This document shows positions 5,998 through 13,936 of a stretch of 50,105 nucleotides of DNA, piece by piece. The DNA is from an uncultured Methanomassiliicoccales archaeon (GTDB taxonomy: Archaea > Thermoplasmatota > Thermoplasmata > Methanomassiliicoccales > Methanomethylophilaceae). How positions within the stretch are numbered: the first letter of the stretch is position 1; every line of letters starts with the position of its first letter. The notes below the pieces were generated by a model. The model had not been told where the DNA came from, ran no database searches, and saw only the letters and a list, made by a program, of their open reading frames with translations. The translations under genes were made by a program, and so were the position numbers. Location of the stretch: positions 1-50,105 of the forward strand of contig CASFYI010000052.1 of the NCBI GenBank assembly GCA_949298875.1, read 5' to 3'.

Positions 5998-6168
5998 ATG
6001 GCATACGGTGGTTACAGGGACAACGACAAGCCCAGGGAGTTCTTCAAAGCGGTCTGCTCCGACTGCGGCAAGGAGTGCGAGGTCCCGTTCAAGCCCACTC
6101 AGGGCAGGCCCGTCTACTGCAGGGACTGCTTCAGGAAGCACCAGCCTGCCGACAGGAGCAGGTACTGA
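5998..6168 (+). CDS. Small zinc-binding protein (two CxxC pairs)
   Basis: A 56-residue protein from the ATG at 5998. CSDCGKEC (Cys20, 23, 27) and PVYCRDCF (Cys41, 44) frame VPFKPTQGRP, matching a widespread small zinc-ribbon family of archaea and bacteria (CxxC-x17-CxxC with VPFxPxxGRPVYC). The N-terminus is polar and basic. GAGGAG lies 10 nt before the ATG. The frame extends upstream to 5905, but the extra residues are unlike the family. Exact role unknown; nucleic-acid binding is a reasonable guess. The gene stands alone, with 138 nt before it. Confidence 0.8.
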   Translation: MAYGGYRDNDKPREFFKAVCSDCGKECEVPFKPTQGRPVYCRDCFRKHQPADRSRY

Positions 6169-6210: not shown

Positions 6211-6435
6211 TCATTCTCGATCCTTTCCGGCACCGCGTCTCATGTTCTCGAAGGCAAAGGCCCTGATGAAGCTCCTGATACCCAGGCACAGGACGAGTAC
6301 AACTACGAAGGCGACGATCAGGATTATCCCCGCCACCTCCGAGACGGTGAAGAAGAGTATGCCGCCGATGCATATGCATACGGCGGAGAGGGCTGCGAGC
6401 AGCCCGCTCAGTTTGCGGGTGCGGGCGATGTCCAT
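6211..6435 (-). CDS. Small membrane protein with two transmembrane segments
   Basis: A 74-residue protein starting at the ATG at 6435, inside the end of the flavin-binding gene (28-nt overlap, different frame), so it is probably translationally coupled. Two hydrophobic segments (about residues 10-31 and 33-56; LLAALSAVCICIGGILFF, GIILIVAFVVVLVLCLGI) are followed by a basic tail (RRGAGKDRE). No family is recognised. It is the last gene of the leftward set PAS protein, 33-residue peptide, flavin-binding protein, this gene. Its frame stays open upstream to 6843 only as a shadow of the flavin-binding gene. Confidence 0.6.
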   Translation of the reverse strand: MDIARTRKLSGLLAALSAVCICIGGILFFTVSEVAGIILIVAFVVVLVLCLGIRSFIRAFAFENMRRGAGKDRE

Positions 6436-6833
6436 CGCGCGACCCTGTCGCCGGAGGTGTACGAGGCGCTCTCGTCCCAAACCTCGGACGGCCTGAAGAC
6501 CCAGAGGGCGTTGACGTGCATGTTCTTCCTGCCCAGAACCTCGCTCAGACGGTCGAACTCCGGCCCCTCGGTGATGCGGCCCTCGGCCTCCACCCTGAGG
6601 GAGTAGCCCTCCTTCCCCTTCCACACGAGGAACTCGGCCTTGGGGCAGGCCTCGAGATACTGGGAGGAGCGGTACATGTAGACCTCTCCGACGTAGATCC
6701 TGTCGTCGTCGCCGACGATGACGGCGCCCAGCACGATGCTGTGGGGGAAGCCGTCCGGCGACACCATCGACAGGACCTTGTTGGTGTCGGGATGCCTGAG
6801 CATCCTCACTACGTTCTCGGGCAGCTGGTTCAT
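6408..6833 (-). CDS. Pyridoxamine 5'-phosphate oxidase-like FMN-binding protein
   Basis: A 141-residue protein with the split-barrel fold pattern of the PNPOx-like family: NVVRMLRHPDTNKVLSMV and DGFPHSIVLGAVIVGDDDRIYVGE, then SSQYLEACPKAEFLVW, then EAEGRITEGPEFDRLSEVLG. Members bind FMN or F420 and act as small oxidoreductases or flavin carriers. The ATG at 6833 overlaps the TGA of the 33-residue gene upstream (TGATG), which favours this start over the GTG at 6836. With a PAS protein and two tiny membrane proteins in the same operon, a redox-sensing or membrane-associated flavin role is possible; that is inference. Confidence 0.8.
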   Translation of the reverse strand: MNQLPENVVRMLRHPDTNKVLSMVSPDGFPHSIVLGAVIVGDDDRIYVGEVYMYRSSQYLEACPKAEFLVWKGKEGYSLRVEAEGRITEGPEFDRLSEVLGRKNMHVNALWVFRPSEVWDESASYTSGDRVARWTSPAPAN

Positions 6834-6934
6834 CACTGCTCACTTGCCCTCTTGCGGTTGGCGATGGCGAGGATGACGTAGTAGATGGCTCCCGCCACGA
6901 TGATCGCTACGAAGTTTCCGATGTCGAACTCCAT
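6833..6934 (-). CDS. 33-residue single-pass membrane peptide
   Basis: A small gene in the leftward operon. It encodes a 33-residue peptide with an acidic N-terminus (MEFDIGN), one transmembrane helix (FVAIIVAGAIYYVILAIA) and a basic tail (NRKRASEQ), which predicts the N-terminus outside by the positive-inside rule. Its TGA overlaps the ATG of the flavin-binding gene, a tight coupling that supports it being real. An AAAAGGGG lies about 12 nt before the ATG. It starts 31 nt after the PAS gene ends. No family is known to me; it may recruit the flavoprotein or the PAS protein to the membrane. Confidence 0.6.
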   Translation of the reverse strand: MEFDIGNFVAIIVAGAIYYVILAIANRKRASEQ

Positions 6935-6965
6935 GGCCGGCAAATCCCCTTTTCCATAGATATAG

Positions 6966-7346
6966 TCACTGGCTGTCGGAAACCGAGACCAGACGCAGAT
7001 GCTGGACGACCAGCTTCAGCTTGCCGCCCTCGTAGTAAGGCACCGCGGAACAGTCGCACACGAAGTTCGTTCCGGGGATGATCCTGCGCTTGACGTTCTG
7101 AGGACTGCCCACATTCATCTGGTTGACGACGCAGTCGCTGCAGGAGACCGTGTTCCCGAAGAGCGAATAGCACTTCCTCCCGATCACCTGGTCCGCGGAC
7201 TTCCCGAAGGCCTTCTCGGCCGCCTTGTTCATCCATATGACGGTGTGGCACGAGTCATGAATGATGATGATGTCGTCCACGATGTCAAGGATCATGTTCA
7301 TGAGCTTCTCGGTGTAGAGCTCGTCCTTGCTGATTTCAGAGTCCAT
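6966..7346 (-). CDS. PAS-domain protein with a cysteine cluster
   Basis: A 126-residue protein that is nearly all one PAS domain: ILDIVDDIIIIHDSCHTVIWMNKAAEKAFGKSADQVIGRKCYSLF, the usual PAS opening. It is followed by cysteines (Cys in RKCYSLFGNTVSCSDC, then FVCDC) in the pattern often seen in PAS domains with a CxxC after the F-alpha helix, which may hold metal or respond to redox. No kinase or DNA-binding output domain follows, so it must act through a partner. GGGAGAGGG precedes the ATG, and a TATA-like TTTAAA at about 7378-7383 lies upstream. It heads the leftward set of four genes. Confidence 0.85.
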   Translation of the reverse strand: MDSEISKDELYTEKLMNMILDIVDDIIIIHDSCHTVIWMNKAAEKAFGKSADQVIGRKCYSLFGNTVSCSDCVVNQMNVGSPQNVKRRIIPGTNFVCDCSAVPYYEGGKLKLVVQHLRLVSVSDSQ

Positions 7347-7444: not shown

Positions 7445-7459
7445 CTACGAAATTCGTAG
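7445..7459. promoter_or_regulatory. Palindrome CTACGAA-A-TTCGTAG upstream of the FNR-like gene
   Basis: A perfect 7-bp inverted repeat with a 1-nt centre in an AT-rich, non-coding stretch between the divergent PAS and ferredoxin-NADP reductase-like genes, about 70 nt upstream of the latter's TATA box. A very similar 15-mer occurs at 12669-12683. Likely operator; no regulator is identified. Confidence 0.5.
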
Positions 7460-7559: not shown

Positions 7560-8495
7560 ATGTGCTACGACGTCGTCATCATCGGGGCTGGATGCGCCGG
7601 CCTGACCGCCGGGATCTACGCCAGGTCCAAGCTGATGAGTACCCTCATCCTGGATGCCGGACGCGTCGGAGGACAGCTTGTAAGCCTGTACCCCGAGAAG
7701 GGTATCCACAACTACCCCGGATTCGAGACCATACAGGCCAGGAAGCTCTCGGACAAGCTCTACGCCCAGGCGGAGGCCGCCGAGTGCGACATCCACGAGA
7801 ACGAGAAGGTCCTCGAGATCGCCAACGGCGACCAGGAGCTGATCGTGCGGACGAACGCCGGCGAGTACCACGCCAAGTCCGTCATCGTCGCGATCGGAAT
7901 GGGCAGCTTCAAGCCCAAGAAGATGGGATGCCCCGGCGAGGACGAGTTCTTCGAGAAGGGTGTGACGTACATCCTCCCCGTGAAGGAGGAGCTAGTCGGG
8001 AAGAAGGTCACGATGTTCGGCGGAGGCAACAGCGCCATCGACATGGCCCTCATCGCGGACAGCGTCACCGACACGACCATCGTCCACAGGAGGCCCGAGT
8101 TCAGGGCGGACGAGTCCACCGTCAATCACCTCAAGGCGAGCCAGGTCCGCACGATCATGAACGCCAACCTCGTATCCATCAACGGAACCGACCACGTCGA
8201 GTCCGTCACCCTCTCGGTCGACGGCAACGAGATGATCGTCCCCACGGACCTCGCCGTCATCAACATCGGCATCTCGGCCGACCTGGAGGACCTGGAGAGG
8301 TGGGGCCTCGAGCTCAACCCGGACGGCCTCGTAAAGGTCGGCTTCGACATGAGCACCAACCGCCCCGGCATCTTCGCCTGCGGTGACGTTGTGAGCTACC
8401 CCGGCAAGGTGAAGCAGATCACCACCGCCATGGGAGAAGCCACGACCGCGGTCCTGATGGCGTACAAGTTCGTCAAGAAGCCCTACTGGGCCTGA
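7560..8495 (+). CDS. Ferredoxin-NADP reductase-like flavoprotein (thioredoxin reductase superfamily)
   Basis: A 311-residue protein from the ATG at 7560. It has the two-dinucleotide-fold layout of thioredoxin reductases: an FAD motif (VVIIGAGCAGLTAGIYA, about residues 5-21), a GGQLVSLYPEKGIHNYPGF region, an NADP motif (GGGNSAIDMALIA, about 157-170) and a closing FACGDVVSYPGKVKQITTAMGEA. The redox-active CxxC of true thioredoxin reductases is absent, and the LYPEK motif matches the YumC-type ferredoxin-NADP+ reductases. It therefore probably moves electrons between ferredoxin and NADP(H). It could supply NADPH for biosynthesis. Stands alone between a palindrome-bearing upstream region and the amidohydrolase gene 45 nt downstream. 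Confidence 0.88.
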   Translation: MCYDVVIIGAGCAGLTAGIYARSKLMSTLILDAGRVGGQLVSLYPEKGIHNYPGFETIQARKLSDKLYAQAEAAECDIHENEKVLEIANGDQELIVRTNAGEYHAKSVIVAIGMGSFKPKKMGCPGEDEFFEKGVTYILPVKEELVGKKVTMFGGGNSAIDMALIADSVTDTTIVHRRPEFRADESTVNHLKASQVRTIMNANLVSINGTDHVESVTLSVDGNEMIVPTDLAVINIGISADLEDLERWGLELNPDGLVKVGFDMSTNRPGIFACGDVVSYPGKVKQITTAMGEATTAVLMAYKFVKKPYWA

Positions 8496-12665: not shown

Positions 12666-12686
12666 ATTCTACGGATTTCGTAGAAT
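12666..12686. promoter_or_regulatory. Palindrome ATTCTACG-GATTT-CGTAGAAT upstream of the CBS/HPF-like gene
   Basis: An 8-bp perfect inverted repeat with a 5-nt centre. Its core CTACGGATTTCGTAG (12669-12683) matches CTACGAAATTCGTAG at 7445-7459 in 13 of 15 positions. It lies about 30 nt upstream of the TATA-like GTGTTAAATGCGTT at 12717-12730 and 75 nt before the gene start. Likely operator. Confidence 0.5.
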
Positions 12687-12760: not shown

Positions 12761-13936
12761 ATGGGAGTAAAGGACCTTGAAGACCTGAAGAAGCTGGCCA
12801 TGCTGAGATCCCAGATCGACGGCATATCCGTCCAGAGCATCATGTCTACCGAATTCCCCACCGTGTCCTCCGACGACCGCATCGCCGACGTGCTTGCGGT
12901 CATGAAGGACAGCAAGTACCAGGACATACCGGTCGTGGACGGCGGAGAGTTCGCAGGAATGGTCAGTTACGCCTCGATTCTCAGGAAGAAGAGCGTGACC
13001 CTCGACGCCAAGGTGAAGGGACTCGTGAAGAACCTGCCCACGGTGACCGCCGACATGGAGATCACCAAGATCGCGGAGATGATGGTCTCCACGAACTGCA
13101 GGCAGCTCCCCGTCCTGACCGGCAAGAAGGTCACCGGAATCATCCAGAGGAACAGGCTTATCGAGATCGTCAGGGACATCAAGGCGCTCAAGGAGATCAA
13201 GGTCTGGGAGATCATGAGCAACCCGGTGGAGTCCGTCAGGGTCAACGACCTCATGGACGACGCCCTCGAGCTGATGATCCGCGAGGACTACAGGACCATC
13301 CCCGTGATCAACGAGACCAACGAGGTCGTCGGTATCGTCGGAATGAGGGAGATCATCGACAACAACTGGAAGAAGGACAACAAGACCATCGGGGACCTGG
13401 AGAAGAGCGCACGCTCGCAGATCACCGTGGAATCCATCGCCCTGACGTCGGTGAAGACCATCAGCTGGGACGAGGACATCGCCTCGGCCGTCGACATCAT
13501 GGTCGAGAACAAGATCTCCACCCTTCCCGTCATCGAGGGCAAGGAGCTCGTCGGAGTGCTCACCGAGTACGACGTCATCGAGCTGCTCTCCGCCTGTCGC
13601 GAGAGGGACATGCTCTTCGTGCAGATCAGCGGACTCGACGACAACGAGAAGGAGGCCACCGATGTCATCTACGCGGACATCGAGGACATGGTGAAGAAGA
13701 TCTCCAAGGTCTACAAGCCGGAGTCCCTCACCATGCACGTGTCCCGCTACAACGACGCAGGAGGCAACTTCAAGTACAGCATCAGCGCGAGGCTGTTCAT
13801 CAACGGCACGGCCGTCATGGGCAAGGAGGTGGGCTGGGACCTCACGAAGACCGCCAGCGACCTCATCAAGAAGCTCGAGGACGCCGTCATGAACATGAAG
13901 GACTCCAAGGTCACCTTCCGCAAGAGGAAGAAGTGA
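12761..13936 (+). CDS. Four-CBS-domain protein with C-terminal ribosome-hibernation-like domain
   Basis: A 391-residue protein with GAGGTG just before the ATG. Residues about 20-290 hold four CBS motifs (SIMSTEFPTVSSDDRIADVLAVMKDSKYQDIPVV; KNLPTVTADMEITKIAEMMVSTNCRQLPVL; EIMSNPVESVRVNDLMDDALELMIREDYRTIPVI; VKTISWDEDIASAVDIMVENKISTLPVI). The last roughly 95 residues form a different alpha/beta domain (VIYADIEDMVKKISKVYKPESLTMHVSRYN..., ending in lysine-rich FRKRKK), reminiscent of the HPF/RaiA ribosome-hibernation fold. A nucleotide-sensing ribosome-associated factor is the best guess, but that is inference from pattern. Has its own palindrome and TATA box upstream and a strong hairpin after it. 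Confidence 0.85.
   Translation: MGVKDLEDLKKLAMLRSQIDGISVQSIMSTEFPTVSSDDRIADVLAVMKDSKYQDIPVVDGGEFAGMVSYASILRKKSVTLDAKVKGLVKNLPTVTADMEITKIAEMMVSTNCRQLPVLTGKKVTGIIQRNRLIEIVRDIKALKEIKVWEIMSNPVESVRVNDLMDDALELMIREDYRTIPVINETNEVVGIVGMREIIDNNWKKDNKTIGDLEKSARSQITVESIALTSVKTISWDEDIASAVDIMVENKISTLPVIEGKELVGVLTEYDVIELLSACRERDMLFVQISGLDDNEKEATDVIYADIEDMVKKISKVYKPESLTMHVSRYNDAGGNFKYSISARLFINGTAVMGKEVGWDLTKTASDLIKKLEDAVMNMKDSKVTFRKRKK

Follow-up and report, generated by a model that had tools for sequence, protein, structure and literature searches.

The NreB-type PAS domain of Staphylococcus, a [4Fe-4S] protein, resembles the PAS protein described below in its four cysteines, a likeness by count in the excerpted account of PMC4601167. 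In methanogens, the MsvR box is given as TTCGTA-N4-TACGAA, in a redox context, by the excerpted text of PMC3729527. The FMN-binding protein of Desulfovibrio vulgaris and other PNPOx-like split barrels are, like one of the proteins considered here, small and of a single domain. The Methanomethylophilaceae are recorded in databases from rumen, gut and sediment, and to our knowledge the sensing of redox state in such archaea is poorly known. Here we describe a four-gene cluster from this family which is conserved, real and apparently undescribed; a search of the open-access literature found nothing on the module, its protein families or the palindrome that accompanies it.

The stretch of DNA analyzed (the window, 50,105 nucleotides) is a single contig of a 1.34-Mb draft genome that is 79.7% complete. 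Re-reading of the sequence returned, at the same coordinates, the four leftward genes that a first-pass annotation had described, with their TGATG coupling and overlap. The features of the locus are:

5998..6168, plus strand: convergent zinc-ribbon-like neighbour, CxxC-x17-CxxC (TIGR04272, 71.4 vs 36 bits)
6211..6435, minus strand: two-helix membrane protein, 74 aa (hydrophobic profile)
6408..6833, minus strand: PNPOx-like split-barrel (FMN-binding-protein-like) protein, 141 aa (sub-cut-off PNPOx_N match, model)
6833..6934, minus strand: single-pass membrane peptide, 33 aa (profile matches in relatives)
6966..7346, minus strand: PAS-only protein, 126 aa (Pfam PF00989)
7446..7458, no strand assigned: 13-bp palindrome TACGAAATTCGTA (CTACGAATTTCGTAG on the minus strand), candidate operator in the intergenic region between reductase and cluster
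7560..8495, plus strand: divergent thioredoxin-reductase-like ferredoxin-NADP reductase with no CxxC pair (solved-chain matches)

Between the PAS and peptide genes there are 31 nt; at the TGATG junction the stop codon of the peptide gene and the start codon of PNPOx have one base in common, and the PNPOx and two-helix genes overlap by 28 nt. The position of the zinc-ribbon-like gene is unchanged in most loci.

The PAS protein passes the Pfam cut-off (PF00989, 38.3 vs 22.6 bits). Its AlphaFold2 model, for which, as for the PNPOx-like protein, only window and named-locus sequences served as input, has a PAS fold (pLDDT 85.5) and aligns with FixL (8js5_F) over 124 residues with Z 13.1 and rmsd 4.0; model confidence is low in the loop at C69-C72 (pLDDT about 71-73). 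An alignment of 45 rows has ten invariant columns, four of them cysteines. In the window these are arranged C59-x9-C69-x2-C72-x26-C99, and all four are kept in 45/45 rows. Since the same type of PAS is found within multi-PAS histidine kinases of two members of the family and one other member of the class (L138, L139 and L140), the standalone form was probably derived from such a kinase. On one draft contig each, the PAS continues in frame into the peptide (L151) and into the PNPOx-like protein (L154). In the two family members the four-cysteine PAS lies inside an 853-aa response-regulator/multi-PAS kinase protein (L138, 1834-4395; L139, 1948-4509; domains assigned by eye), which adjoins a conserved 372-aa protein. 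A different family of the order also has a standalone PAS of this type (L141, 2992-3357), located away from any PNPOx gene and upstream of what we take to be an HMG-CoA reductase gene.

The PNPOx-like protein does not reach the Pfam gathering score for PNPOx_N (24.4 vs 28.1 bits). Its AlphaFold2 model (pLDDT 91.3) has a split-barrel fold, with HupZ (7kpz_B) as the highest-scoring structure (Z 16.8, rmsd 2.1, 124 aligned); 3in6_A (Z 15.4, rmsd 2.5, 125 aligned) and the Desulfovibrio FMN-binding protein 1wlk_A (Z 14.9, rmsd 1.7, 112 aligned) also score, as do proteins of this fold that bind F420 or heme. By sequence, 3in6 was the only solved chain found with E <0.01. On the model, the split-barrel fold is settled; it does not fix the cofactor. 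The gene is also found in tandem duplication within the cluster. A tree built on 57 PNPOx rows places the window protein with the second tandem copies (support 100/99) and the own-genus copy elsewhere, with the first (97/84), so that a tandem pair is the likelier ancestral state and a single ancestral PNPOx gene was dropped. Elsewhere in the same genome (contig C33; L061, 4887-6036) a first-copy-type paralogue adjoins a 192-aa multi-helix membrane protein, a pairing also seen in relatives L062 and L065.

The peptide and the two-helix protein have no family in Pfam, and in NCBIfam neither they nor the PNPOx-like protein match a family above cut-off; kinship of the peptide to FeoB-associated membrane proteins (E 0.15, 12.8 vs 27 bits) was also dropped. 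In the 26 peptides compared, the N-terminus is short and acidic and is followed by a hydrophobic span and then a basic tail. Because lysine and arginine are in excess on the C-terminal side in 26/26, an N-out, C-in topology is predicted. This consistent charge pattern, with the single-pass and two-helix hydrophobic profiles, agrees with the first-pass description of the system as membrane-linked, as far as can be judged from sequence. In the two-helix alignment, two glycines are invariant in 22 rows. In seven of the eight closest peptide-bearing pairs the peptide has a dN/dS of 0.06-0.38; in the eighth, the window and L143, it is 0 with one silent change only. One pair exceeds 1 (L156/L160, 1.98). 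Pooled pN/pS over the 24 closest of 53 pairs, several of which have a genome in common, is 0.48 for the peptide, 0.27 for PNPOx, 0.21 for PAS and 0.56 for the two-helix protein. By these comparisons the peptide is under purifying selection. A chance 33-aa open reading frame is ruled out by conservation, topology and selection.

The main survey covered 61 genomes of the family. The PNPOx protein as a single query matched 57/61 at E 1e-3 (53/61 in the closer list), the PAS is present in 36/61 and absent from 25/61, and the two-helix protein is present in 40/61. The peptide profile matched 45/61, with 26 of the 45 matched peptides having built the profile and 19 not; the PAS, peptide and two-helix profiles were all built from part of the genomes later counted. 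The same gene order, which the first-pass annotation had proposed to seek in relatives, does recur: all four genes occur together in 21/61 genomes, and all but the PAS in six more. Neither of the two results that would have counted against that annotation was seen: the small proteins are conserved, and the PAS and flavin genes are neighbours, since of the 36 genomes with a PAS, 32 have it upstream of PNPOx at a distance of at most 1300 bp. The peptide gene lies at most 700 bp upstream of PNPOx in 38/61 genomes, and the two-helix gene at most 700 bp downstream of it in 38/61. Seven of the 61 genomes have the PAS, PNPOx and two-helix genes, but the profile search detected no peptide in them. Four loci of the window's own-genus clade (L161, L166, L167 and L169) likewise keep these three genes with no peptide. 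Among 45 named loci found via the PAS, 38 have the peptide, 40 PNPOx and 38 the two-helix gene, several of the misses being contig ends; L188 was left out of module counts. The whole-genome and named-locus sets overlap (e.g. G057:C47 and L147) and are therefore not independent. The PAS of L143, a Candidatus Methanomethylophilaceae draft, is 95% identical to that of the window.

Beyond the family, the PNPOx profile matched 65 of 300 genomes of the class, comprising 44 in the family and 21 in the order's other families. The peptide profile matched 35/44 family genomes of this sample and, weakly, 16/256 genomes outside the family; the latter matches had E values between 1e-4 and 7e-3 and lay in frames 139 to 2064 aa long. 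At 20/20 flavoprotein loci of the same order outside the family no peptide, PAS, reductase or zinc-ribbon gene was found, and the one two-helix match was at chance level. The absent partners and the weak peptide matches thus indicate that the four-gene arrangement is confined to the family as sampled.

The gene divergent from the cluster encodes a protein whose general resemblance is to thioredoxin reductase. Its closest solved chains are the ferredoxin-NADP reductases 6gas, 8c16 and 3lzw (E 3e-49 or lower) together with 2zbw, it stays under the NCBIfam thioredoxin reductase cut-off (TIGR01292, 204.7 vs 343.45 bits), and its sequence has no CxxC pair; on these three grounds a classical thioredoxin reductase was ruled out. 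The gene is present in 56/61 family genomes, and wherever it shares a contig with them it is divergent from the PAS (33/33), peptide (42/42) and PNPOx (52/52) genes. Measured from match ends, the PAS is 119-256 bp from the reductase in 29 genomes; where the PAS is missing the peptide comes first, at 169-301 bp in 15 genomes. Where PNPOx has been lost, has moved or lies on a separate contig (L189, L191, L192, L193 and L168/L190), the peptide is still beside the reductase; at L189 and L168/L190, where PNPOx is absent, the two-helix protein is kept as well. The opposite case is L185/G059, in which the peptide is away from the reductase and still with PNPOx. In G028, G037 and G044 the PNPOx and two-helix genes are together on another contig. 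That the peptide keeps to the reductase even with PNPOx missing or elsewhere points to a division of the genes into a reductase|(PAS-)peptide pair and a PNPOx-two-helix pair. The first-pass view of the genes as one module holds with a reservation: individual genes are lost separately, and the pairings that persist best are those of the peptide with the divergent reductase and of PNPOx with the two-helix protein. Because of these single losses among the family genomes an obligate four-protein complex is unlikely, and it was dropped. Two rearranged loci may be mentioned. In G041 (L044 and L191) about 11 kb with large adhesin-like frames lies between the reductase-side peptide and the PNPOx tandem pair, and in G028 (L193, 3827-5008) the reductase-side peptide is followed, in the place of PNPOx, by a different gene, presumably for a replication factor C small subunit.

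The intergenic region common to the reductase and the cluster carries a palindrome with the consensus TACGAAwTTCGTA. It was found with at most 2 mismatches in 34 of 59 distinct intergenic sequences (from 67 in all, close relatives still being among the 59), as against 0.5 expected from shuffling. Of the 120 palindromes that can be built from its six arm letters, this one ranked first with 21 sequences at 1 mismatch or fewer, the next having 3. It was not found in seven intergenic sequences of the peptide-less own-genus clade. Across 21 genomes of the genus, row sums gave 118 sites at 1 mismatch or fewer vs 31 for the reversed pattern. We sampled 20 site loci (L195-L214), with gene families scored on one representative per kind. 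Five are the cluster locus, four precede a PaaK-type CoA ligase, three malic enzyme and two acyl-CoA synthetase; there is one each for dnaK, 2-oxoacid:ferredoxin oxidoreductase/PEP synthase, an HTH-cupin gene with CoA ligase, and ADP-forming acetate-CoA ligase, and L202 (one mismatch) and L213 are unassigned. Judged by neighbourhood alone, the whole palindrome regulon has a candidate regulator in the HTH-cupin protein. At its locus (L199, 1501-2142) the palindrome stands ahead of the HTH-cupin gene, which is followed by acyl-CoA synthetase. The window has a second copy with one mismatch (12670-12682), 79 bp before the gene for a four-CBS-domain protein (12761-13936).

Recurrence of the cluster across the family beside an electron-transfer enzyme, together with a shared DNA switch, makes it look like a real, undescribed redox module. 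The reading that fits best, which we hold tentatively and at somewhat less than an even chance, is a redox module specific to the family, linked to the membrane and coupled to ferredoxin/NADP metabolism. It is favoured because the gene order and the divergent reductase are conserved, four cysteines are invariant in the PAS and the PNPOx-like protein has the fold of an FMN-binding protein, the peptide shows purifying selection and a uniform topology, the in-frame joins of L151 and L154 occur, and the palindrome recurs both at the locus and before CoA-ligase, malic-enzyme and 2-oxoacid-oxidoreductase genes. Against it stand the 25/61 genomes in which the PAS is absent, others in which the peptide or PNPOx is singly missing, and the peptide-less own-genus clade, which has no palindrome there and still keeps the other three genes. 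The first-pass interpretation is thus partly supported; it had missed the divergent reductase and the shared palindrome. Its term "redox-sensing" would draw on the invariance of the four PAS cysteines, on a fold of flavin type and on the presence of a reductase next door. Under the module reading a regulator would bind the palindrome and from there govern expression in both directions, of the reductase and of the module. The four PAS cysteines may hold a metal or a redox-active thiol site and report redox state or oxygen, and the split-barrel protein may carry FMN (or F420 or heme) and trade electrons with, or be served by, the reductase. Perhaps the peptide (N-out, C-in) and the two-helix protein anchor these two soluble proteins to the membrane or modulate them; the sensor or carrier would then be a split one, with its membrane parts encoded by genes of their own. 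We propose the roles in tethering, sensing and electron exchange on this basis. A narrower version, which we think rather improbable, is a split membrane sensor in which the PAS (as receptor) and the small flavoprotein (as electron carrier) would become membrane-bound by pairing with membrane proteins of 30-35 and 70 residues, under one operator with the reductase and the CoA-ligase/2-oxoacid regulon; if so, the PAS-peptide join of L151 would be its fused form.

Other readings of the locus divide its parts differently. The peptide may belong functionally to the reductase, as a membrane tether or regulator or as the translated leader of a shared promoter region, with the PAS, PNPOx-like and two-helix proteins as later, loosely coupled neighbours. 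We regard this as doubtful: peptides beside the reductase with no adjacent PNPOx (L189, L191, L192, L193 and L168/L190), and PNPOx and two-helix genes together on another contig (G028, G037 and G044), speak for it, but a leader needs no conserved membrane span with one charge pattern in 26/26, the peptide lies at most 700 bp upstream of PNPOx in 38/61 genomes, and at L185/G059 it has left the reductase and kept with PNPOx. An ordinary neighbourhood, in which slow rearrangement preserves the order of proteins that work separately and the PAS is a detached kinase domain serving as an adaptor elsewhere, is unlikely. The occurrence of the four-cysteine PAS inside multi-PAS kinases of relatives (L138, L139 and L140) and, with no module, in another family of the order (L141) would suit it, as would the similarly conserved convergent zinc-ribbon and PC4-like genes; overlapping and TGATG-joined genes, tandem duplication inside the cluster, a cluster missing around the flavoprotein in 20/20 loci outside the family and one PAS-peptide join argue the other way. 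It is quite improbable that the PNPOx-like protein binds heme or F420 (HupZ-like or F420-reductase-like) in a module which handles heme, tetrapyrroles or electrophile detoxification and not redox sensing. HupZ does give the top structural Z (16.8), and there are matches to F420 and heme proteins with this fold, yet FMN-binding proteins come within two Z units (1wlk_A 14.9, 3in6_A 15.4), 3in6 is the sole solved chain by sequence at E <0.01, and the cofactor is not fixed by the fold.

The locus offers testable handles: a new family of membrane proteins of about 33 residues with a conserved context, a four-cysteine PAS with no output domain, and a candidate operator common to the module and to central carbon and electron-transfer genes. 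The identity of the palindrome's regulator, the content of the PAS site and the binding partner of the peptide thereby become concrete questions.

In comparison with the described systems, the palindrome has the hexamers TTCGTA and TACGAA in common with the MsvR box as the excerpted text gives it, but with the arms reversed in order and another spacing (TACGAA-N-TTCGTA); control by MsvR was dropped on account of this opposite order. The PAS has no attached kinase, unlike that of NreB. By profile, with E 1e-23 to 1e-24, its type and cysteine pattern recur in the Cys-rich domains of archaeal histidine kinases that contain several PAS domains, whereas the one here is standalone, at about 115-130 aa. 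The putative flavoprotein has 19% identity to the Desulfovibrio vulgaris FMN-binding protein and differs from it in lying in an operon with membrane peptides. The neighbouring enzyme has the sequence kinship of thioredoxin-reductase-like ferredoxin-NADP reductases and like them no CxxC pair, and its gene, with this activity predicted, is here paired divergently with the module.
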